Assembly: GCF_000003605.2 (NCBI RefSeq)
Contig: NW_003141313.1
Location: 337,227-361,759 of the forward strand
DNA: 24,533 nucleotides
Source of the DNA: Saccoglossus kowalevskii
Lineage: Eukaryota; Hemichordata; Enteropneusta; Harrimaniidae
Reading direction: 5' to 3'
A program made the translations under genes and the position numbers. This document shows, piece after piece, positions 2,160-14,199 of this stretch (within the stretch, counting starts at the first letter, position 1; each line of letters starts with the position of its first letter). The notes beneath the pieces are model-generated. The model did no database searches, had not been told where the DNA came from, and was given only the letters and a program-made list of their open reading frames with translations.

Positions 2160-2924
2160 CAGAATACTTAGCACCTTAGATTTATCACAGATATCTTGGA
2201 CTTTCATTGCTGCAACTCTTCAACTAATGAACAAGTCATGAAAACTACACTGGCACTGAATGTTTTTCATACATATATTACTTTTTATAAACTATCGAAC
2301 TGTCATTAATATCTTTTATGTTGCAGCAACAGCATATCTTCAACTTTAGAAATATTACTTATACTTGCAGTGCTATGACCAGCAACAATAATATAGGGTA
2401 GTGGAATAGATGCTTGGCAGTATGTTCTGTACATGCGATGAATGGCTGTGCATTAAACTATTTTCTCTTGGTGATTTTTTTTTTTCAGTTGCTGATATAC
2501 AAGACATGCAATGGGGATAATAAAGATGCATTCCTGTGACGATAAAGTTTTTTTTCAGCTATTTGGACAAGATAAACGTGTAACAAGTGTGTGTAATTTG
2601 ATAACCTGCGATTGGATGTCCACCTTGAGCTGTCAGAGAGGGGAGGGAGATCACATCAGAATGCTGAAACAAAAATAACGTTAGTAAAAGTACATAAGAA
2701 CCACTGCTACCTTAGGAGAACCAAGGTTCTCACTCCCTTACTCTTCTTCCTCTCCTCCTGCTGTCATAATTTTATCCAATGTGCCTTTCACGTTTCCTCC
2801 CCTAATGACTGGTCTCTCCTTATGAACAGGCTAAATTTACCAGGAAAGAAATTGTAAAAAGATTTTGTGTCAACAATCAACAAATATTTACCTGTTGTTA
2901 CCAGACATCTGACATATGGGACAC
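2160..2924. other. Non-coding sequence downstream of, or in the 3' UTR of, the troponin T gene
   Basis: No gene is supported apart from the alternative terminal exon candidates on the minus strand (2738-2801 and 2892-2936; see findings). No AATAAA polyadenylation signal on the minus strand is evident between 2925 and 1700, so the transcript end could not be placed. The 81-codon plus-strand frame at 2612-2857 has no recognisable content. Confidence 0.4.
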
Positions 2925-2936
2925 TTAGTTTTTCTT
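2925..2936 (-). CDS. Candidate terminal coding exon of troponin T (KKN, stop)
   Basis: A strong acceptor (TTAACATTTTTCAG) is followed in phase 0 by AAG AAA AAC TAA, giving a C-terminus ...FTEELQAEKKN after exon 21. The intron would be about 1.6 kb. It is the best-looking 3' splice site I found downstream, but other minus-strand acceptors exist (for example before 3644 and 3505) and would also give very short ends, so the call is tentative. Confidence 0.4.
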   Translation of the reverse strand, partial: KKN

Positions 2937-5900
2937 CTGAAAAATGTTAATTGAAAAATCATACATAATGTCAATCAGGTTAAGAAATAATTAGTTTGAC
3001 TTTCCACACTAGTGTTTCACTTATTTTAATTTAAGTTTTAACCTGATTGAAAATAAACTGCAACAGGATGTCTTGCGGAACGATGAACTTGAGATCACAA
3101 AACTCACATATTCTGTTGTAAGCACAGTTATGTGTTGAAAGTCATACTAAAGTCAGTGAAAAAACAACATTAAAAGAAAGTGAAAATAATTATTAAAAAA
3201 AGAGCAGTTGTAAAATAATTGTGTAGAAAAAATTTGCATTCAAACTTCTGTAAGCAAGCCATGTTAGTAACCAGAAACCAGTATCTTTGCTTAGTATGTG
3301 TTTTTGAAAATTCAATTAGTACAGACACTCCATGTCGTGTGATTTGCCATATAATATAGCGACCGAGGCAGAGAAATCATTTTGTAAAAAATAGAAATCA
3401 TGTCATTATATCATGACAGATAAATATTAAATTTTGAATGCTGGTTCTTCATTATTATTTTGATTATTTTTATAAATAGGAATTGACCATCAGAAACTCT
3501 AGGGAGGGTAAAATTCTCAGAGACTATTTTGAAAAAAATACTACAAAAAAAAGCTGTATTTATAAGAGACATTCGGTACCTAAGTAAAGCAACAACAAAA
3601 AACAAATTTACCACAACACCATCCTGAAATAAAAATCTAGCTCAAAACTAGGGAAAAAATAATAGTTTTTGTATTCTAGCATCTCCCCTCTCAGAGTGTC
3701 TAATGCCCAACGTCTTACTAGATAACGAAGAAAGAATAAAGCAGCAAGGTATTGTAGATGAAAAATTAATGGATTAGACAAGATATCAGTGTATACGGTA
3801 ATTTATACAACACACTTAGAGCCATTGATATCACAGAACACAGTACATTAAACATTCATACAAGGTAAATTTTATAAAATGTCAATATAAGTGGCATATT
3901 GAAAATATCACATGTCAAATTTCATCTTTTGTGTGATGCAATTTGACATATAAGTCATGTTAAAAGTCATCAGTCATGACATGTCATCATCAGGTAAACA
4001 AAAATGAATTAACTTATATTATTATATTTTTGCACGACACTGCACGCAAGTTGGCATGATATAGAACATTGTTTATCATGACATGACATGACACGACACG
4101 ACATGTGCTGTGACATGGATTATTAGGTACCACAGCATCATATTTAAGTAATTATGTGCCAAAATATGGTCATAGGTCAGGATTATTGATGATATATTTC
4201 ATGTGAAATATGACATGGGTCATTATGAGCTTATATGACATATGTCACATAAACTATAACATATGTCATTATGAGCTTCAATGACATATGTCACCAGACA
4301 CACACAGACTTTTATAATATCACATCAAAGCGACATGGTTAAAGCATAGTGTTGCTGGTGAAGATTCTGACAGCTGTCAAGAAGCATAACACATTAATAA
4401 GAAAGTAATCACATTATATATCGGTGATCAGCTTTTAACATATTAATCAAACAAAAACATTATATATGAATATATAAATTCATTTTTTTGGTTAACATGT
4501 TATAGTGAGCCAAGACATACCTCTGCTTGTAACTCCTCTGTGAATTTGCTTTTCCTATGATAAAAAGACAAAAAAACAAAAACGTTAATTTTGTTAATTA
4601 TTTTTTCACCTAAAATATAAATATTTCCATGTTCATGTTTTGAATTGATTTAATGAATGTTAACTTACTTGTCAGTACTCGCCATTAGTTTAGCGACATC
4701 CTTCTTAGGACTGGTAGGACAAAGAAAAACAAACATAGATCATTAGAAATTATTGTGCTCAATTATTATGCTTCAATCAACACTGTATTTTGAAATACCA
4801 CACGTTATCTTTAGTATTAGCTGAGAATAACCTCTAATTATTTACCAAAATATATGTCACATACTGTAAAAATGGAATTATTTTTTCGCTGATAAAACAC
4901 TTTATTTTCACTGATTTTTGATCAGTTTAATGTAAAATATATAAAAAAAATTCATTGGATTTATTCTCACTGATTTATCCCTTCAGTAAAAATAGAAAAA
5001 TAAATTCAAGTAAAAAAGCGTCATTTCAAAATGTTGTAAAAGTTTTTCTTACTTCTTTTGCATGTCCTTAAAACGCTCTGTTAGTTCATGAATCTATAAA
5101 ATGAGAAAATAAAAATTTATTTGTAAGTAAAAATCATGATGTATCACACATGACAACTGATGACATCACAATTCACATGTATATATCTCCTCATGATCTG
5201 ATATCACATAAACTTACCGGAAATATATTTCATATCACACATTATGTAAATTGATGACATCCAATGTAAATTAATGACATCCAATGTAAATTGATGACAT
5301 CACATGAAAATTGATGACATCACATAAATTGATGACATCACATGTACATTTATGACATTACATGTAAATTGATGACATCACATAAATTGATGACATCACA
5401 TAAATTGATGACATCACATGTACATTTATGACATCACATGTACATTTATGACATCACATGTAAATTGATGACATCACATAAATTGATGACATCACAAGTA
5501 CATTTATGACATCACATGTAAATTTATGACATCACATGTGAACTGACAAAATCACAATTCATTGCACATTTATTTGACATGACATTCCAACACATAAACA
5601 TAACAACACATTAATTCATGACATTCGTGATTAAGTTTGAAAACTTACATCATATTTCTGGCGCTTCTGCTTTTGGGTCATATCATAAATTGCTCCCAAG
5701 CATTCAGACAATTTTCCCTTAAAATCATTTGCATACTCTCGTAGACGTTCAGGACTGGTCATTGCTCCAATCATCAAGTTGGGAATTCTTTCAGCCATGA
5801 CTTTCTGTTTTTCTTCCTCTTTTTCCACTGCACTCTTGGTAGAAGCTTTGGCCTTTTGGATTGCGCCCTATAAATAAATAAAATATTTAATTTCAGTATG

Positions 5901-8900
5901 TTTTTAATTCATCTAATATAAGATTGATTCTAGTCAACACTTTATAATGTCTTTACATTATTGTGAAACTGAAAATAAATAATTAGTATATTCTTACCTT
6001 GATATCAGAACCTCCAAGATGTTGGCCAATACCTTGAAACTGCATTTGACGAGTCTGCTCACGAGCACGTCGTTTATTCTGAGCAGCAGTTTTCCTAGCC
6101 TCCATTTCTTCTTTGCGTCTCAATGCTTCCTCCTGTGAAGTGGGAAAAAACAGGGTGTAACTAGTGTATGCTTTTCCTGTATTATTTTATATAAATTGAC
6201 ATTCAGAAATTAATATGCAAGGTAATTTAAATATTACGGTTGGGAATATATCAACTATTATTGCATAGCCGATTTATTATACATGTATCAATATAACCTT
6301 GCATCTCATTAATTATCTTACCTCTGCTTTCTTTCTCTTTGCTTCCTCTCTCTCAAGAGCCAAACGGTCTCTCTCTTTTCTCTCAATTTTACGTTTCTCC
6401 TATAAAATAAAAACAATGAGATCATATTTTACACTCAAGTATATAATATTCTCATGTACAATCATAACACCTGTTTTTGGATATTGTAAAACAAACTTAG
6501 ATTGGCAAAGTTTGGACTTTAAAAATTAAAATTAAAAAATTAATAAAGTTAATTGTTAATTTAGCCTTTTTAGCGTGGCCGTGAAAACTAGCATGACCGC
6601 GAAAGAAATCCCTTGCGAAAAGAAGTCCCGACTTTGCCAGTCTAAAACAAACTATGTATAGCAATATCTGAAACCTTAAAATTAAAAAGTAATTTTTTGC
6701 AACAAAAACAAAATAATAATTACATTTTGTATAAGGACACATTTTTTTGTGAAAACTAGAAAATAGAAATCGACAACCACATATTATATTCTTTCATACT
6801 TTTAGCATGCAAATATCAATTAACCTTTATCAACGTTGATATAAAAAAAAGAAAAAAAATGCTTACTCGTCTTTCACGAAGTGCTGTCAATTCAGCAGCT
6901 AATGCTTCTCTATCTTTACGTAGTTGTTCAATGGCCTCTGCCAACATTACATCTTGTTCTTGCTTTCTCTTTTCCTGCATTTCCTGTTAACATAGACAAG
7001 AGACGATATAAGTTTAATAATCCTTTCTGTGCCATAATTTGTTGATTTGAATTAAATAAATACAACTTCCAATTCCCAAATGATCTTGATCTTGATTTTC
7101 GAAGAAATATAGAAAAAAATCATGCAAATTTGTTTTGTGAAAAATAACACTCAAAGTGTTATTGACACTCAAAGTGTTATATATAATGTAAACAAAAACA
7201 AGCAGCCTGTCGGCTGAGATAGCCCCGCTGTTAGCAATGCACATTTCAAATAAAGAACAGAAGATATCATTAGAAAATGAACAACATGTATAGTATCAAA
7301 GCAATCGGACTTGCTGTTTTCAACAAGAAGTCAAAAATATAACTTTTTACCAAAAATAAAAAAAATATTCACCAAAATTAGAGAATTAAAGATATCATTA
7401 TGAAATGAACAAATCCAAGAGAGGTCTACCCAAGGTACATATACACCAAGTATCAAAGCATTCAGGTTTGTAGTTTCCAAGAAGGAGTCAAAAAAGTGAA
7501 AAGTTGACACAGACAACAGCCGACGCCGGATGCCGCTCGACAAAGTCGACAGCGGAGCTAAAAAAGGTGCCTGACTACTTCAAAGAAATTCAATGGCTGA
7601 ATGTAGTTACTAGGAATTTAAGGATATACAACATGTAGTAGGTTTGTTTGACACATTTTAATCAAAATGAACTTTTTATACTATATAGAATCTTAGCTTT
7701 TATAATTCTCTATAAAAAAAACTTACAAGTATCTAATGTATGACATGCTATCGTAGTTGCCAGGATAATGAATTATAATGTGATTATATTTTTAGAAATT
7801 TTTAGAAAAAATTAAACGGTGCATTTGGTAAGATTTCATAGATCAAAACAATTTTGAACTGAACATCAGATCCTATGATGATTGCTACACAAAATGAAAC
7901 ATAGGATGTACAATTGCATTGTGGTCTTACCCTCATCTCTCGTTCTGCATCTGTTTCCTGTCTCACCACTGGGGCAATCTCAGGCACAGGTTGGGGTCTG
8001 GTGGGGAAGAAAAAAAAATGTTGACAATTACAACAAATAATATTAAATACCATATCATAATTAGAAAATGACAAGAATTATCAATGATATACTTCCTATT
8101 TTTGAATTCAAAATCATATGCATCAGAGCGTATTCATATCATATTTGGAATGAAATAGGACCTGACAAGTCTGAAATTGTTGATGTTCAAACTTTTTATT
8201 CTTAATTTAAATTAATCAGATTTAAAAAACTAAATTATGCACATACAGAAACTACTTTTAACATTTGCTTCATTGTTATCATGATTTAAAGCCCTTCATA
8301 GGGGAACACTTTTATGAAAGCCACTCTGACATGTTTTCCGCTACAAATTGTCCCTGATATTAACTAAACTAAAAATACATTACTTCTTTTCTTGTTTCTT
8401 CTCTTCTGGTGGTGGAGGCGTTGGTTCAGGTTCAGCCACAGGTTCTGGCTCAGGTGCTGGCACCTAAAAGTAAAAAGAAATTGCAATAAGAACAGATATT
8501 GCTTAAAAAACAGGATTCTTAAAGAATTTATTCAAACATGGGAAAGACAATCAAGGAAGGGAAAAATAGTTAAATACATGCAAATCAAACACTGGAAGTA
8601 GTCAGTTTTGGTGAGCATAGGGAAAAGTACCAAATGGTATCCAGGTTTACACACCAGATGGTATCCAGGTATGGGTACCATATGGTATACATGTATAGGT
8701 ACCAGATGGTAACCAGGTATAGGTACCAAATGGTATCCTGTCATAGGAACCAGATGGTATCCGGGTATAGATTTAGGGTGGATGCTGGGTGTGGGAGGTA
8801 ATGCACAACAAACACACATACAGGAATCATGGGGTCACTGCAAACTTTGTACAACTAACTTACTTCTGCTGGCTCTTCCTCAGCTGGGGCCTCCTGTAAG

Positions 8901-11900
8901 TTTATTTTAATAAGTTGAATTATAAATGAAAGAAAAATATGATATAAAAAATTAAACTAATTCATGCAGAAGAAGTATACATGTATATTTGAAAACATAA
9001 TTTCAAACAAGTGTTTTGTGAGGTATAGTGAGAATTATGAGATCCATGATGTAAACAGCAACTTGATGTAGTATGGTTAGAGATGAGAAAGACAAGATCA
9101 ATTTGTCATAGTTTGTCACTGCAAGCATTGTACAACACATTTACTTCAGCTGCATAGGCTTCCTCCACTGGAACATCATTATAAATTTGGTTCGCAATCA
9201 GACGGAAAAAGGAAATTATAATATAGTCAAATTAAACAAATCAGTTTGGTGTGCCAGCAGAAAAAACAGAAGTAAAATATAACTTTCAGGCAACAATAAT
9301 GATAAAGGAATACATGCAATATTGAGGACGGGCATTTTCCATGTAAAAGGTGTTGTAATACAGGGAAAACTGCAAACCAGACACACCCACTTACTTCGGC
9401 AGGGGGTTCTTCAGCTGGGGTCTCCTTAGATTTGTTTTAATAGCAAAAATGGGAGTTGAGAATAGAAAAAGGAATAAAATATAATAAAAATTAAATTAAA
9501 CTAAAATTTAAAAAATGCACCATGCATATAATCACAAAGAAAATGAAAGCAAATAACCAAATATTATTTTTAAATAAATTAATCCAGCATACTGGGGTTG
9601 GGATGAGGTGGTATTTGTGGAGTTGGGATGGTGTGTAACTGAAAGATGGGAATAAAGAGAAATCACAACACTACAAACATTGGGTATATTAGAATAGGGA
9701 AAACTGCAAACCAGGCACACCCACTTACTTCAACAGGGGCTTCCTCAGCTGGGGCCTCCTTGTTTTTTTTTTATAGCAAATAATGGAATTTTGAATAAAG
9801 AAAAAAAAGGAAATAAATATTATAATAAAATTAAAATTAAATAAAAAGCATCATGCACAGTCACAAAGTAAGTTGAAGCAAATATAAGACTCAATACATA
9901 TTTTTTAATATGAATATGGTACACTGTGGTTAGGGGGCTTTTTGGTAGGGATGGTATTTAATGTGGCGATCAGAATAAACTGAGAAATACAAAAAAACAC
10001 TGCAATATGTGGCACATCATAAAACTTGGCTAATACAGCTGATTTGGAGGTATAAACATTGGGTACATTAGGATAGGGAAAACTGCAAACCAGGCACACC
10101 CACTTACTTCGGCAGGGGCTTCCTCAGCTGGGGCCTCCTTGTTTTTTTATATAGCAATTAATGGAGTTTTGAATAAAGAAAAGAAAGGAAATAAAATATA
10201 ATAAAATAAAAGCATCATGCATAGCCACAAAGTGAGTAAAAAAAAAGCAAATAAAAGATTTAATCAAAGTTTTTCATTATTAGGGTGGGGTGGGGGTGAG
10301 GGAGGTTGGTTGGCAGGGGTGGTGTGTGACATGAAGATGAGAACAAACTGGGAAATCACAAACACTTGTGCAAGATAGAACACATCAAACAGCTTGGGTC
10401 TGTAATACACCTGATTTGAGGTATAAACGTTGGGTAAATTAAGGGTTGGGAGAACCGCAAACCAGGCACAACCACTTACTTCGGCAGGGGCTTCCTCAGC
10501 TGGGGCCTCCTTAGATTTGTTTTAATAGCAAAGAAAAGAAAGAAAATAAAATATAATAAAATTAAAATAAAATAAAAAGCATCATGCATAATTACAGGAT
10601 AAGTGAAAGCAAATAAAATGATAATGCAAAATATTGGTTATAATATGGAAATAAGCAGAATGCTAAATGTGGCATATTATAATTGTTCAACCAATGGGAA
10701 AACTGCAAACCAGGCACAACCACTTACTTCGGCAGGTGCTTCTTCAGCTGGGGCCTCCTTAGATTAGTTTTAATAGCAATTAATGAAGTTGTGAATAAAA
10801 AAAATAAAAAAAATAGCATTATATAAAATTATAAAGCAATAAATAAACAAAATCAGTAGAAATAAAGATTTATAATAAAACAAAGATTTCATGCATAAAA
10901 AAGAAGCACTAAAGGCATGTAAGGCACTGGGAAAACCAAACAATTCTCTGTAGACAAAATCCCTGTTATTTGTTTTGGAATCATACACACACAAAAATAT
11001 TTTCTCATGTCCTGCCGGTTGTTCAATTCCCAGTTTCAAACAGGAAAAGAAAAAAAAGTAGAAGATATGTCATGCAAATATAACAAAATAAACCAGTTAT
11101 AGGATAACCACACTGCACACTGCTTCAAGATGTGGTGATGTACACACATGCAACAATCACTGTGGAGAAGAATCCCTAGCAGACAGGAACAAAGTGTTGA
11201 CAAAAAGTGTGGTTGCCGGGCAATTGGAACAAAGTGTGGGACAGTGTGGTTGCTGGGAGATAGGAAGAAACATATGTGAGACAGAAAGTGTGGTTGCTAG
11301 GAGATAAGAAACCCATGTGAGACAGAAGGTATGGTTGCTAGGCAACAGAAACAAACCCATGTGAGATAGGTGTGGTTGCTGGGCAATGGGAATTCACAAA
11401 CTCATATGAGATGGAAGGTGTGGTTGCTGGGAGATAGAAAGAAACCTATGAGCGACAGAAGGTGTGGATGCTAGGGAACAGAAACAAACCCATGTGAGAT
11501 AGAGGGTGTGGTTGCTGGGAAATAAGAAGAAACCCAAGTGAGACAGAAGAAGTGGTTGCTAGGGAACAGAAACAAACCTATGTGAGATAGAGGGTGTGGT
11601 TGCTGGGAAATAAGAAGAAACCCAAGTGAGACAGAAGATGTGGTTGTTAGGCAACAGAAACAAACCCATGTGAGATAGAATGTGTGGTTGCTAGGCAATA
11701 GAAACACACCCATGTGAGACAGAAAGTGTGGTTGCTAGGAGATAGAAACAAACCCGCATGGGGTAGAACATAACTGGTTGCATATAGGGATGAGATACAC
11801 TGGGGTCACTGCAAACATAGGTATATAAGCATGTGACAACCCACTTACTTCAGCAGCTGGTTCTTCAGCTGGGGCCTCCTTGGATTACATTGTAGTTGGG

Positions 11901-14199
11901 GTTAAATGGTTTTATAAATAAATAGTCAGATTCTAAATGCATAACATGCAAAAATCAAAGAAAATCAACGCAAACTCCAATTGGATACTGACAGACAATA
12001 TCAGACTTATTCATCACATACTTCTTTTAAATGCAATGCAAAGATAATAAAATAGCACATAGATTTTCAAAACAAAAATGATAAAAATTATATATGCAGG
12101 GATACTTGGCTATCTACAAAGTTATTTAATCTTTCACCATCAGTAATACTATCACTCACTTATGCTGAGTTTGTTGGATTTCATTTCACATTGTTTATAA
12201 AATTTAAATGTAAAATAATCTCTAATATATTTGTGAGTAGTATAGTGTTGATGAAAGGATTAAATACTAATACATCAATCACAGCAATATATAGATATAA
12301 TGGATAAGATGTATTTGCTCTATTAGTAGCACATGCACTTAAATGACAGAAGTATATCGATAATCAAAATAAGTCATATTTTTATGATTCAGCATACAAT
12401 AAAGGCATTTTTTGTTTTCTGTGCACTTCTATTGGAGATATGCTTCTACTAGAGCAAATATGGTATAAGGAGAAAATTGGATCACATTAAATTTGTGCAT
12501 GCTGAGGTTGCCAGGAAACAAAGATGGGGGTAACTTCAAATGGATGGAAGGGATCACTACAAAAAGAGGATAGGTTTCACTATAATGGAAGGGTTCACAG
12601 CAATGGGGAGGGTCACTCATTAAACTTACTTCAGCGGGTGCTTCCTCAGCTGGAGCTTCCTAACACAGGGAAATTAAAAAGCAAGCGATAAAAACAAAAA
12701 AATGGAGCTCTTAAAATGACTAGCATCAGATGCGAACACAAAACAGTAGCCCAATCTGCACAATCGTTCAAATCAAGTCAACATGCTGAGAAACTAGACC
12801 ATTGCATTGCATTCTTTGGGAAATGGAGATTAAATATATGTACAGGAAGAGAAACAATTAAAGCAACACGGCTCAAATAAAACACAGCTCAGAATGTAAG
12901 ACATGTCGCCAACTTGAGAACAGAAACAACACACTATGCAATCAATTTGAACACACTGCCGATTGGTTAGATTTACACATTTTATCATCACTTTTTTTAT
13001 TCAAAAATGATGTAATCTTCACGCTGAAAGGGGACATGCAACAGCAACTGTAATTGCAGTAGCAGAGGAGATTGTTGCACAATTTAAGGGTGGCATGGGA
13101 TCACTGCACACAAGGAGGGGGGTCACTCAACTTACTTCAGGGGCTTCATCTCCTTCCTAAATATATATGGAAAATGTACCAAATTATCAGATCATAGTAT
13201 TTCACAAATTTGAATGATTGTAAATCTGCTACAATGTCATTTTAAGGGTGTCAGGTTTTGATAGCATGTTTAACTCTTTCAATACCTTACAAAATGAAAC
13301 CACATAATTTGTTTTCACATATATTTTTTTGAATGTTCAAATGATGTCTGTTTGATGGAAATTAAAAAAGAACTTTCAGAAAGAAACATTTTAATAAACA
13401 TATATTGGCATTTCAAAGAGTTAATATTGGCAATATTTTTAAGAAGTAATACAAACAAATATACGGTTCAAAAATTCAACAGTCTATCATCATCTCCCCA
13501 AGATTTCAAATGGTACACCCCTTAGAGTCAATTATGTATATTAATACCATCCACGTGTATGTGGTATTTTTCATTGATCAACAATTACTAACACTATTAT
13601 ATGATTGTCTGACAACTCACCTCAGCGGGAGCTTCACCAGCCCTGTAAACGTAAAACAAATAGTATGAATGAAAATCTATTTTTGTGTCAAACGAAATGA
13701 AAAAAAGTTGTCATGAGGGCGCTGTTCAAGTAAAATTCAACGGAATTCACACTGAACGTAAAGCATAAACATTGGGGACAGAAGTGCATGCAAACAACAT
13801 CTCGCGTGTTTTGATTTGCTTTTAAAATAATAGTAAATCATTTTAATATATAGCTAACACATAAGCAAATACATATTGCCATCATGGTGTATAAGGTCCC
13901 GGTATAAAGTATACATCTCGTCACTGAAATACTTTTATCTGGTATGTTGATATCGGGTGTGGTGTGCACAGCCTGTAGTATGTAACACCAACTGACACCA
14001 GCTTGCACCGTATCCCGGTGATACCAAAACTCCTGGCACGTTGTTTAGTATTCGATAATATACAAACCAAATTGTAAACAAATATTTGGTCGTATTATAA
14101 ACAATATTTAATTCGACAGCCTGTAACTTACTTTTCGGCTTCTCTTCTTCTCCTGCGTTCTTCACGGCGGCGGGCGCGTTCGTCTGCTTCGTCTGCCAT
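2925..14199 (-). CDS. Troponin T, spliced gene (20 coding exons traced plus candidate last exon)
   Basis: Troponin T anchors the troponin complex to tropomyosin on the thin filament and passes the calcium signal from troponin C and I. Exons were joined by GT-AG sites and phase; together they give an open frame of 388 codons before the last exon. The order is: a basic start MADEADERARRREERRRRRE; an acidic Pro-Ala-Glu repeat region from microexons; a Pro/Glu/Lys-rich linker; a Lys/Arg/Glu-rich coiled-coil (ELTALRERR, then EKRKIERKERDR); IGQHLGG, matching the vertebrate MGAHFGG site; and LREYANDFKGK through KQKRQKYD, matching the troponin I/C-binding coiled coil that ends KLKQQKYE in vertebrates. 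The vertebrate C-terminal GRWK-type end is absent. Without the eight 30-nt repeats the protein would be about 310 residues, close to vertebrate troponin T. The exact 3' end is uncertain. Confidence 0.93.
3860..4300. repeat. Intronic region rich in TGACAT/ATGTCA palindromes
   Basis: Short motifs ATGACAT, TGACATG and their complements recur many times. The 12-bp perfect palindrome TGACATATGTCA occurs twice (about 4236-4247 and 4282-4293), each copy preceded by a shared TTATGAGCTT segment. ACATGACACGACACGACATG-like runs lie at about 4080-4105. It shares the GACAT core with the tandem repeat at 5238-5552, suggesting a common origin. Confidence 0.7.
4521..4554 (-). CDS. Troponin T exon 21, 34-nt exon near the C-terminus
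   Basis: The acceptor CTATG-context TCATAG and donor GTATGT bracket 34 nt that read K-KSKFTEELQAE, entering in phase 2 and leaving in phase 0. Since 34 is not a multiple of three, skipping it changes the downstream frame. Confidence 0.8.
4669..4710 (-). CDS. Troponin T exon 20
   Basis: 42 nt, acceptor CCTACCAG with a good pyrimidine run, donor GTAAGT, phase 2-2. It reads NPKKDVAKLMASTD, and its last two bases (AA) await one more base from the next exon. This phase matters for the C-terminal switch described in the findings. Confidence 0.88.
5053..5093 (-). CDS. Troponin T exon 19
   Basis: 41 nt, acceptor TTTATAG, donor GTAAGA, phase 0 to 2. It encodes IHELTERFKDMQK, continuing KYD as KYDIHELTERF, which aligns with KYEINVLYNRI of the vertebrate protein. 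Confidence 0.92.
5238..5552. repeat. 17-20 bp tandem repeat with TGATGACATCACA core
   Basis: About 16 copies of AAATTGATGACATCACATGT or shorter forms lacking the ATGT part lie in the intron between exons 18 and 19. Variants with TTTATGACATC and TGACATCCA occur. The AT-rich flanks and core spacing vary between 17 and 20 bp, so it is an imperfect array. Confidence 0.9.
5649..5867 (-). CDS. Troponin T exon 18, troponin I/C-binding coiled coil
   Basis: 219 nt, acceptor ATTTATAG, donor GTAAGT, phase 0-0, 73 residues and the largest exon. ERLREYANDFKGKLSECLGA and the end KQKRQKYD match the vertebrate helix LREKAQEL...LKQQKYE that pairs with troponin I in the core IT arm. There is a single Cys, in SECLG. 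Confidence 0.95.
5998..6132 (-). CDS. Troponin T exon 17, contains IGQHLGG
   Basis: 135 nt, acceptor CACTTCACAG, donor GTAAGA, phase 0-0, 45 residues. Near its end FQGIGQHLGGSDIK aligns with the conserved vertebrate troponin T segment around MGAHFGG, the linker between the tropomyosin-binding helix and the troponin I/C-binding domain. This is the most diagnostic short motif of the gene. Confidence 0.95.
6322..6399 (-). CDS. Troponin T exon 16, charged helix
   Basis: 78 nt, acceptor TTTTATAG, donor GTAAGA, phase 0-0, 26 residues beginning EKRKIERKERDRLALERE. It is almost all Lys, Arg and Glu, as in the central helix of troponin T. Confidence 0.92.
6497..6645. mobile_element. Small MITE-like element with 23-bp inverted ends
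   Basis: The left arm 6497-6519 and right arm 6623-6645 are inverted repeats matching at 20 of 23 positions (core TGGCAAAGT). The interior of about 100 bp has an AT-rich left half and a GC-richer part with GTGGCCGTGAAAA. It lies in the intron between exons 15 and 16. Short length, terminal inverted arms and no coding capacity fit a non-autonomous DNA transposon; no target-site duplication was confirmed. Confidence 0.55.
6867..6983 (-). CDS. Troponin T exon 15, tropomyosin-binding coiled coil
   Basis: 117 nt, acceptor GTTAACAG, donor GTAAGC, phase 0-0, 39 residues. It includes AEAIEQLRKDREALAAELTA and then LRERR, corresponding to the vertebrate segment ending ALKERIERR that binds the tropomyosin head-tail overlap. 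The heptad-like spacing of Leu/Ile/Ala among charged residues fits a helix. Confidence 0.92.
7145..7180. repeat. Tandem pair of small hairpins
   Basis: ACACTCAAAGTGTTATTG-like sequence occurs twice in a row. The first copy holds AACACT and AGTGTT as perfect arms around CAA (7146-7160), and the second holds the same hairpin with one arm mismatch. Confidence 0.7.
7220..7560. mobile_element. Interspersed repeat, MITE/SINE-like, with internal duplication
   Basis: TAGCCCCGCTGT at 7220-7231 is the inverse of ACAGCGGAGCTA at 7549-7560 (11 of 12). Between them lie two related segments: 7263-7340 and 7387-7495 share AGATATCATTA, GAAATGAAC or a near match, GTATCAAAGCA, and AAGAAG/GGAGTCAAAAA. The right end contains GACGCCGGATGCCG, a GC-rich block similar to ends I associate with abundant bivalve repeats (from memory, unverified). 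It is non-coding. Confidence 0.5.
7931..7997 (-). CDS. Troponin T exon 14
   Basis: 67 nt, strong acceptor (long T/C run, CCACCAG), donor GTAAGA. It enters in phase 2, leaves in phase 0 and encodes PQPVPEIAPVVRQETDAERE followed by MR. It starts the transition into the charged tropomyosin-binding region. Confidence 0.88.
8384..8463 (-). CDS. Troponin T exon 13, Pro/Glu linker
   Basis: 80 nt, acceptor CTTTTAG, donor GTAATG. It encodes 26 residues starting VPAPEPEPVAEPEPTPPPP and ending in a Lys-rich stretch (EEKKQEK), and leaves in phase 2. The run of Pro-Glu suggests an extended, disordered rod that separates the acidic tail from the coiled coil. With exon 14 it forms a frame-neutral pair (147 nt). 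Confidence 0.9.
8626..8769. repeat. 24-bp minisatellite, six copies
   Basis: Units start at 8626, 8650, 8674, 8698, 8722 and 8746 and follow GGTACCAGATGGTATCCAGG plus TATA. Since 24 is a multiple of three, the minus strand reads through it as repeats of GYHLVPIP, part of a 95-codon frame (8532-8819) within the intron between exons 12 and 13. I regard the frame as a by-product. Confidence 0.95.
8864..8893 (-). CDS. Troponin T exon 12, 30-nt cassette 8 (EAPAEEEPAE)
   Basis: Phase 0-0, acceptor AACTTACAG, donor GTAAGT. The CAG acceptor is better than those of the central group. It is the last cassette before the linker exon. Sense-strand TGCATG lies at 8963-8968, about 70 nt upstream. Confidence 0.9.
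9145..9177 (-). pseudogene. Decayed troponin T cassette exon (acceptor lost)
   Basis: This 33-nt segment aligns with the 30-nt cassettes and would read DVPVEEAYAAE in frame. The base pair that should be the acceptor AG is AT (TAAT for TAAG), and the donor is GTAAAT rather than GTAAGT. The nearest AG is inside the exon (TTCCAG) and would leave 23 nt, which breaks the frame. The upstream flank keeps a sense TGCATG (9313-9318), and the downstream flank keeps the shared CACTGCAA-like block. It is most likely a dead duplicate, although a rare non-canonical acceptor cannot be excluded. Confidence 0.7.
9395..9424 (-). CDS. Troponin T exon 11, 30-nt cassette 7 (ETPAEEPPAE)
   Basis: Phase 0-0, acceptor AATCTAAG, donor GTAAGT. 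It has Thr and an extra Pro but keeps frame and acidic charge. Sense-strand TGCATG lies at 9521-9526, about 100 nt upstream. Confidence 0.9.
9729..9758 (-). CDS. Troponin T exon 10, 30-nt cassette 6 (EAPAEEAPVE)
   Basis: Phase 0-0, donor GTAAGT, acceptor AACAAG after about nine As. One codon change gives Val at residue 9. Sense-strand TGCATG lies at 9852-9857, about 95 nt upstream. Confidence 0.9.
10108..10137 (-). CDS. Troponin T exon 9, 30-nt cassette 5 (EAPAEEAPAE)
   Basis: Phase 0-0, donor GTAAGT. The acceptor AACAAG is preceded by a run of A rather than pyrimidines, one of the weakest in the gene. The exon sequence is identical to cassette 4. Sense-strand TGCATG lies at 10216-10221. Confidence 0.9.
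10480..10509 (-). CDS. Troponin T exon 8, 30-nt cassette 4 (EAPAEEAPAE)
   Basis: Phase 0-0, acceptor AATCTAAG, donor GTAAGT. It is almost base-identical to cassettes 3 and 5. Sense-strand TGCATG lies at 10583-10588, about 75 nt upstream. Confidence 0.9.
10728..10757 (-). CDS. Troponin T exon 7, 30-nt cassette 3 (EAPAEEAPAE)
   Basis: Phase 0-0, acceptor AATCTAAG, donor GTAAGT. It belongs to a group of five cassettes (9395-10757) with near-identical exons and flanks. TGCATG on the sense strand lies at 10890-10895, about 130 nt upstream. Confidence 0.9.
11190..11770. repeat. About 44-bp minisatellite, about 13 copies, with 88-bp higher-order repeat
   Basis: The block GTGGTTGCTRGG recurs about every 36-50 bp (11210, 11247, 11290, 11333, 11371, 11420, 11464, 11507, 11551, 11596, 11640, 11682 and 11727 approximately), separated by AACAGAAACAAACCCATGTG-type spacers. 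Positions 11471-11558 are repeated at 11559-11638 with about one mismatch, showing recent expansion of a two-unit block. Minus-strand frames over it (LLPSNHTF-like) are repeat artefacts. It lies in the intron between exons 6 and 7. Confidence 0.92.
11849..11878 (-). CDS. Troponin T exon 6, 30-nt cassette 2 (EAPAEEPAAE)
   Basis: Phase 0-0, acceptor ending ATCCAAG, donor GTAAGT. The acceptor has A at -3 and a poor pyrimidine tract, predicting weak use. A sense-strand TGCATG lies at 11945-11950, about 70 nt upstream. A minisatellite-bearing intron of about 1.1 kb follows. Confidence 0.88.
11880..12629 (-). other. Intron 5, no features seen
   Basis: AT-rich intronic sequence between cassettes 1 and 2. 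Apart from TGCATG motifs at 11945 and 12332 on the sense strand I see nothing. I looked for a remnant cassette (CAGCTGGGGCCTC on the plus strand) and did not find one. Confidence 0.5.
12630..12659 (-). CDS. Troponin T exon 5, 30-nt cassette 1 (EAPAEEAPAE)
   Basis: Phase 0-0, with acceptor GTGTTAG after a fair pyrimidine run and a GTAAGT donor. This is the most 5' of eight 30-nt cassettes. Its codons (GAA GCT CCA GCT GAG) differ from the closely related downstream group, so it is an older copy. Confidence 0.88.
13136..13156 (-). CDS. Troponin T exon 4, 21-nt microexon (EGDEAPE)
   Basis: It lies between the acceptor TATTTAG and a GTAAGT donor and encodes seven residues in phase 0-0. Because it is symmetrical it can be included or skipped without changing frame. 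It resembles the later 30-nt cassettes (EAP core) and may be a shortened relative. Confidence 0.85.
13621..13642 (-). CDS. Troponin T exon 3, 22-nt microexon
   Basis: It is flanked by TTTACAG and the donor GTGAGT. Its first base completes a Lys codon, and the rest reads AGEAPAE. It enters in phase 2 and leaves in phase 0, so skipping it alone would shift the frame; it is probably constitutive. Confidence 0.85.

Follow-up and report, generated by a model that had tools for sequence, protein, structure and literature searches.

A tandem array of 30-nt micro-exons, probably alternatively spliced, in a troponin T gene of Saccoglossus kowalevskii

Micro-exon arrays in troponin T

Tandem micro-exons that code for repeats in the N-terminal region of troponin T have been described in the flight muscle of chickens and related birds. 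Passages in two papers report that galliform fast troponin T contains seven tandem P exons coding for pentapeptide repeats (PMC11016001, PMC7581897). A comparable array was found in a 24,533-nt stretch of DNA from Saccoglossus kowalevskii (assembly GCF_000003605.2, contig NW_003141313.1, positions 337,227 to 361,759), here called the window, in which a gene that is almost certainly troponin T, judging from its predicted protein, carries eight micro-exons of 30 nt, here called cassettes. All coordinates below are window positions unless another contig is named. The P exons of fast troponin T in galliform and craciform birds (Tx segment), as those passages present them, resemble the cassettes in being tandem and in coding for repeats in the N-terminal region. 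The P exon unit, however, is given there as a histidine-rich pentapeptide, AHH[A/E]E, with affinity for transition metals (PMC11016001), whereas each cassette codes for a double EAPAE-like unit and the eight translations contain no histidine. Since unit length, peptide, and metal site all differ, the two arrays appear not to belong to one family, though they are alike in working, and the present array probably arose independently of the avian P exons. A sequence-only reading that preceded this analysis had said that it looks like an independent, lineage-specific solution; as worded, that claim was not supported, because the galliform P exons, as described in the passages cited, are a precedent for an array of this kind. 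A tandem micro-exon array in troponin T is thus already known in kind, and the longer, histidine-free units are what is new here. The interest of the locus lies in a likely convergence and in a repeated control unit, not in a new class of mechanism.

Several other systems resemble the array in part. The PEVK region of titin has many small frame-neutral exons coding for Pro- and Glu-rich repeats, and skipping of groups of them sets its length; there the product is an elastic spring in a giant protein. One paper touches on that titin array briefly (PMC13322953). Exons 4 to 8 of human fast troponin T (TNNT3) are also alternative exons near the 5' end and are mostly of one phase class (PMC2447309), but the passage concerned makes no mention of near-identical copies, whereas the cassettes form one amplified family. 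RBFOX- and PTBP1-regulated human micro-exons are described, in the text available, as short, with T content low just upstream and higher beyond 20 nt, with UGCAUG up to twofold enriched downstream of alternative micro-exons, and with weaker splice sites in those repressed by PTBP1 (PMC4317164). The cassettes share these features, but the human setting is the brain and UGCAUG lies downstream there, whereas here it lies 72 to 141 nt upstream of most cassettes. A poly-Glu extension of troponin T, proposed in part of one paper to be a calcium reservoir, is likewise long and acidic but sits at the opposite end of the protein and is not described there as an exon array (PMC7581897). Among the top-ranked literature results, with subscription papers mostly outside them, no similar troponin T exon array was found in a mollusc or other invertebrate; the available portion of a scallop muscle paper mentions troponin T and no such array (PMC5963113).

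Taken as a whole, the locus is best read as a set of duplicated troponin T micro-exons that are alternatively included, under control of an Rbfox type, and that act as a dial for the length and charge of the tail; we put the probability of this reading at about 75%. Should cDNA bear this out, the same type of tail-setting device would have been built in two distant lineages of animals, that of the galliform birds and that of the present animal, and the histidine-free version would test whether selection tunes tail length and charge as such or some specific sequence or metal site. The array would also serve as a natural repeat experiment in splicing, with eight near-identical micro-exons, identical donors, graded acceptors, and UGCAUG in every intron.

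Structure, identity, and growth of the array

The cassettes lie on the minus strand between positions 8864 and 12659, each exactly 30 nt long, preceded by AG, followed by GTAAGT, and of phase 0-0 (Table 1). Four of the eight code for EAPAEEAPAE and the others for one variant each; every cassette consists of two 15-nt halves coding for EAPAE-like pentapeptides, and the halves differ mostly at third codon positions. The sequence-only reading had described eight intact, frame-neutral cassettes of this kind stacking to an 80-residue acidic tail, and the exon model and a matrix scan bore this out, "intact" referring to frame and GT-AG only (two cassettes, those at 10137-10108 and 9758-9729, have very weak acceptors rich in A). 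Full inclusion would add 80 residues with a net charge of -33. The same reading had counted 256 possible isoforms; 256 exon subsets do exist, but they correspond to only 104 distinct proteins of nine lengths, because four cassettes code for an identical peptide, and to 208 proteins when the 21-nt exon upstream is also optional. In the matrix scan, which used a matrix built from these same cassettes on both strands of the whole window, the cassettes scored 46.7 to 57.2, the next site was a decayed ninth copy (15.9), and the maximum in 20 simulated Markov-1 windows was 9.6. The cassette scores are far above the simulated maximum, and the array is therefore not a product of chance. When a 71-base query around c4 was run against the 572-Mb assembly, all 7 matches fell inside the array (c2 to c7 and c9); since c1 was missed, the sensitivity of this search is limited.

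The cassettes are exons 4 to 11 of a gene model of 21 coding exons on the minus strand, which gives a single open, phase-matched frame; its ATG is in the exon at 14199-14132 and its stop codon in that at 2830-2738, and all 20 introns are GT-AG. The identification as troponin T made in the sequence-only reading held. The predicted protein matched the Pfam Troponin family (5.3e-6; 27.2 bits against a cut-off of 26.2), and the Pro-Ala-Glu region gave an Extensin_1 match of 26.2 bits, far under the cut-off of 105 for that family. Against solved structures (PDB), the core gave 18 matches, of which the best 15 were troponin T (top, 1.5e-7), with troponin I next (0.073). A two-sequence profile made from this gene and a paralogue returned 9 matches, comprising 8 troponin T sequences, one unrelated match at 0.52, and no troponin I. 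Part of the core is reminiscent of troponin I, and that identity was ruled out by the PDB ranking and the profile search. A vertebrate troponin I query against the genome gave one uninformative match (E = 6.29).

The peptide coded by the cassettes appears to be conserved, a conclusion that the substitution pattern supports moderately. Between the halves within cassettes, 27.5 synonymous and 5.5 nonsynonymous changes were counted over 29 and 91 sites, respectively (proportion of synonymous sites changed [pS] = 0.948; proportion of nonsynonymous sites changed [pN] = 0.060). Among the 28 pairs of cassettes, which are not independent, pS was 0.384 and pN was 0.066.

Direct repeats reach from the exons into the introns, including an exon-intron unit of about 372 bp that is repeated across 9675-10532, indicating that the array grew by tandem duplication. 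Identities between copies, computed over the exon plus 120 nt of 5' flank and 45 nt of 3' flank, were 92% for c5 and c6, 81 to 82% for c4 with c5 and c6, and 70 to 74% for c3 and c7 with c4 to c6; c1, c2, c9, and the 21-nt exon were only 40 to 61% identical to other copies. This gradation, together with the decayed copy, indicates that older and younger copies coexist and that one is dead. Within c3 to c7, the exons were 91% identical and the first 32 intron bases after the exon were 93 to 95% identical, with identity falling to 51% beyond them and standing at 76 to 83% upstream. An intron element, TTTGCAGTGACCCC, whose pattern was derived from c2 and c9, recurs 3' of all ten array exons, counting the 21-nt exon and the dead copy, with 10 to 14 of 14 positions matched (10 to 12 in the eight other than c2 and c9); 10 of 14 is reached by 4.5% of random window segments and by one (the 41-nt exon) of ten other exons. 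A decoy acceptor (TTTGCAG) downstream of the donors was considered and rejected, as its AG is absent in c4 and several constitutive exons have nearby acceptor-like sites with similar or higher scores. The ten related micro-exons, that is, the 21-nt exon, the eight intact cassettes, and the dead copy, have a common origin in repeated exon-plus-intron duplication.

Table 1. Features of the troponin T gene and its cassette array, in the direction of transcription within each group (window positions)
Feature	Positions	Strand	Remarks
First coding exon, MADEADERARRREERRRRREAEK	14132..14199	-	Basic head, net charge +2
22-nt exon, AGEAPAE	13621..13642	-	Phase 2 to 0
21-nt exon, EGDEAPE	13136..13156	-	Phase 0-0; cassette-type intron element after it, 12/14
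c1, EAPAEEAPAE	12630..12659	-	Strong acceptor
c2, EAPAEEPAAE	11849..11878	-	Weak acceptor
c3, EAPAEEAPAE	10728..10757	-	Weak acceptor; 149 nt AG-free upstream
c4, EAPAEEAPAE	10480..10509	-	Weak acceptor; 151 nt AG-free upstream
c5, EAPAEEAPAE	10108..10137	-	Very weak A-rich acceptor; 208 nt AG-free upstream
c6, EAPAEEAPVE	9729..9758	-	Weakest acceptor, A-rich; 129 nt AG-free upstream
c7, ETPAEEPPAE	9395..9424	-	Weak acceptor
Decayed ninth copy	9145..9177	-	AT instead of acceptor AG; weaker donor GTAAAT
c9, EAPAEEEPAE	8864..8893	-	Fairly weak acceptor
80-nt exon, VPAPEPEPVAEPEPTPPPPEEKKQEKK	8384..8463	-	3' of array
Remaining nine coding exons (67, 117, 78, 135, 219, 41, 42, 34, 93 nt)	2738..7997	-	Ends in GGEEEE-stop
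Intron element TTTGCAGTGACCCC after c2	11802..11815	-	14/14
Intron element TTTGCAGTGACCCC after c9	8831..8844	-	14/14
UGCAUG	13035..13040	-	96 nt past donor of 21-nt exon
UGCAUG, c1-c2 intron	12332..12337	-	459 nt 5' of c2 acceptor
UGCAUG	11945..11950	-	72 nt 5' of c2 acceptor
UGCAUG, c2-c3 intron	11147..11152	-	395 nt 5' of c3 acceptor
UGCAUG, c2-c3 intron	11071..11076	-	319 nt 5' of c3 acceptor
UGCAUG	10890..10895	-	138 nt 5' of c3 acceptor
UGCAUG	10583..10588	-	79 nt 5' of c4 acceptor
UGCAUG	10216..10221	-	84 nt 5' of c5 acceptor
UGCAUG	9852..9857	-	99 nt 5' of c6 acceptor
UGCAUG	9521..9526	-	102 nt 5' of c7 acceptor
UGCAUG	9313..9318	-	141 nt 5' of decayed copy
UGCAUG	8963..8968	-	75 nt 5' of c9 acceptor
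UGCAUG	8577..8582	-	119 nt 5' of 80-nt exon acceptor

Splice signals, proposed function, and rival explanations

The donors of all eight cassettes are identical (GAA/GTAAGT) and equal in strength to the constitutive donors (P = 0.49). The mean acceptor score of the cassettes was -0.3, compared to 12.7 for the nine constitutive internal exons (Mann-Whitney P = 0.0006, 8 versus 10 with the last exon); seven cassettes scored -7.0 to 4.6, the nine constitutive internal exons 10.3 to 14.7, and the last exon 6.3. T content in the last 20 nt of the intron was 0.15 to 0.35 for c2 to c9, the dead copy included, versus 0.45 to 0.65 for the nine constitutive internal exons. At -60 to -21 it was 0.40 to 0.80 for c3 to c7, and the U-rich sequence is thus displaced upstream. 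Stretches free of AG were 129 to 208 nt long before c3 to c6 and 26 to 92 nt long before the ten constitutive exons (the last included), so that an AG exclusion zone of at least 100 nt precedes 4 of the 8 intact cassettes and none of the 10 constitutive exons (shuffle probabilities, 0.014 to 0.12, the copies being related). Exons with AG exclusion zones of at least 100 nt are, in the passages available, more often alternatively spliced (PMC1431707); as a sign of distant branch points, the stretches seen here are suggestive only. Every intact cassette has a strong donor, but all except c1 combine it with a weak acceptor and a displaced U-rich tract, so that their inclusion probably depends on assistance or on the lifting of repression. 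It is likely that at least some of the cassettes are under regulated alternative inclusion.

The hexamer UGCAUG, the Rbfox site, was present in all nine introns from the 21-nt exon to the 80-nt exon, compared to 3 of the 11 other introns and, on the opposite strand, 1 of 9. With the dead copy taken as a boundary (ten introns), UGCAUG was the sole hexamer of 4096 found in all ten, and in nine of these introns it lay 72 to 141 nt 5' of the acceptor. The array contained 11 copies versus 1.97 expected, and the maximum in 500 simulated sequences was 6. The product of the shuffle probabilities was 3.6e-8 with the introns taken as independent; UGCAUG is thus present in the flanking introns beyond chance, less strongly so once related introns are collapsed. 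An Rbfox-like gene is present in the genome: a query with the human Rbfox RRM found two RRM exons on one contig at 92% (24 amino acids) and 66% (41 amino acids) identity, the exon between them not being located. One Rbfox-like RRM exon (G000:C1916:130179-130301, minus strand) is directly preceded by UGCAUGCAG, which would fit autoregulation. In vertebrate Rbfox maps, upstream sites usually repress. Since UGCAUG is present in every array intron, a factor of the Rbfox type is the probable determinant of inclusion in different muscle types or stages; whether the regulator is Rbfox itself we regard as an even bet. In Drosophila, one report states in part that Rbfox1 keeps fiber-type isoform expression and affects troponin I (PMC8742874).

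In the mechanism that we propose, cassettes with weak acceptors would be included with aid or after repression is lifted, and the level of inclusion would be set by a factor of the Rbfox type. Each cassette would add ten residues and 4 or 5 negative charges. Since the cassettes are frame-neutral and each adds residues and charge, inclusion would act as a dial of length and charge, running from 0 to 80 residues and from 0 to -33, positioned between the basic N-terminal head and the tropomyosin-binding region; the array is flanked by that head (+2) and by a Pro-rich linker. Judged by analogy to vertebrate troponin T, a tail that is longer and more acidic would have a lower affinity for tropomyosin and confer higher calcium sensitivity. 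In chicken, as a review relates in the passages concerned, calcium sensitivity was higher with a more negative tail and tropomyosin affinity lower with a long charged one; binding of calcium and zinc by the avian segment is also reported there (PMC11016001). Loose binding of calcium by the tail glutamates is possible by the same analogy; zinc binding of the avian type is not expected, because the array has no histidine. That the cassettes work as a functional dial seems to us about evenly balanced. A further and more speculative idea is that of a splicing rheostat. Nearly every cassette has its own control unit, made up of UGCAUG, a displaced U-rich tract, a weak acceptor, a strong donor, and the conserved downstream element, and the level of a factor such as Rbfox might set how many cassettes, rather than which, are included, giving a graded tail that would tune thin-filament activation between muscles. 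Such a rheostat would have arisen separately from the avian P exons, in an array that continues to change, with c5 and c6 92% alike and one copy decayed.

A number of observations weigh against regulated inclusion of the cassettes as a tail-setting device. The splice matrices consist of approximate frequencies and were untrained on this animal; by their scores, c1 has a strong acceptor (10.0), and c5 and c6 may have acceptors too weak for use. The cassettes preceded by AG-free stretches are related copies, and a shuffle probability of 0.014 was also obtained for one constitutive exon, with a stretch of 92 nt. If the dead copy is not treated as a boundary, three further hexamers occur in all nine array introns, namely GTAAGT (the donor), CTTTTT, and TTTTTA, which elsewhere occur in 4, 7, and 8 of 11, respectively. 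The UGCAUG sites before c3 to c7 lie in related copies, so that the product of probabilities becomes 1.9e-5 with c3 to c6 collapsed and 1.6e-3 when they are collapsed harder. Each site is upstream of one cassette and downstream of the previous one, and the enrichment described in human micro-exons is downstream (PMC4317164, in the text available); because of this dual position in a tandem array, no sign was assigned to an Rbfox effect. The Drosophila troponin I splice events tested were, in the part of the report concerned, Bruno1 dependent and unchanged on Rbfox1 knockdown (PMC8742874). The codon-position test on variable columns was weak (6 of 10 versus 5 of 20; P = 0.108), and the review cited above treats the significance of N-terminal troponin T variants, in the section available, as unsettled (PMC11016001).

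The gene might instead have gained, through duplication of exons, an acidic spacer of constant length (80 residues), in which case all intact cassettes would be constitutive and a single troponin T would be made. Every cassette is in frame and bounded by GT-AG, the donors are strong and identical, and coding appears to be conserved, all of which would suit such a spacer; but seven of the eight acceptors lie in a range below those of all constitutive exons, and in T profile and UGCAUG the cassettes are like alternative micro-exons, not constitutive ones, so that we consider it unlikely. It is unlikely, too, that unequal exchange left most of the copies as by-products seldom spliced in, with one or two (such as c1 and c9) functional and the rest decaying. 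The ninth copy at 9145-9177 has indeed decayed already, and c5 and c6, which share very weak A-rich acceptors, are probably both young, given their 92% identity with flanks included. The differences between halves are nevertheless mostly at third positions, the peptide is conserved among copies, and the eight donors have stayed identical, which argues against widespread decay.

In favor of mutually exclusive use, with one cassette per transcript as in other tandem exon clusters, the exons are tandem and near-identical. The length of the AG-free stretches also suggests distant branch points, and a branch point of this kind that lies near the upstream exon can in some cases favor exclusive splicing, according to the passages available (PMC1431707). 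However, multiple inclusion keeps the frame and nothing penalizes it, and the introns, at 218 to 1091 nt, present no obvious steric bar. RNA pairing between cassettes was sought up to 1500 nt and rejected as unconvincing: 9 inverted repeats were found, none linking cassettes in series, and a consensus fold of five units (c3 to c7) showed compensatory change in 0 of 20 pairs. Within that pairing range, then, neither the frame penalty, the steric bar, nor the docking and selector pairing of exclusive clusters was seen, and exclusive use is very improbable.

Paralogue and neighboring sequence

A search of the genome with one core exon found two places, the gene in the window and a paralogue on contig C3956 (G000:C3956:114394-118203, plus strand), the two being 41% identical over 185 alignment columns with the exon ends of the paralogue judged by eye. 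A scan of the readable part of the paralogue found no cassette array. Its first exon, METEDIDFEREERRKRREERRRMREAAR, is similarly basic. Vertebrate troponin T starts acidic. The head at 14132-14199 is Arg-rich, and its pairing with the acidic cassettes inside one molecule is possible.

Tandem repeats of other kinds are also present. A 44-bp minisatellite of about 12 copies lies at 11244-11755, inside the c2-c3 intron, and further repeats at 8627-8770, 5244-5539, and 1688-2159 (units of 24, 20, and 40 bp) lie in introns of the same gene and 3' of its coding part. An open frame of 366 amino acids on the plus strand (435-1535) gave no Pfam match at E = 0.01; the Cys/His pattern at its C terminus is reminiscent of elements of the LINE type.

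When a 60-residue array query was run against the genome, 12 matches were obtained at E values up to 10 (best, 0.00157), and the two on C3956 were examined. They belong to a second gene in which EAPAE exons are duplicated in tandem. These exons are on the minus strand at G000:C3956 positions 133195-133269 and 135012-135092 (75 and 81 nt; DEAEEAPAEEAPAEEAPAEEAPAAE and DDASADEAPAEEAPAEEAPVEEASVAK). A Glu/Gln/Arg-rich exon comes next (132585-132659), and there is an upstream reading frame at 136301-136621. This gene is on the opposite strand to the troponin T paralogue, whose last readable exon is some 14 kb away. Troponin T and troponin I genes adjoin in vertebrates, and for that reason the EAPAE exons on C3956 could be an N-terminal extension of troponin I.

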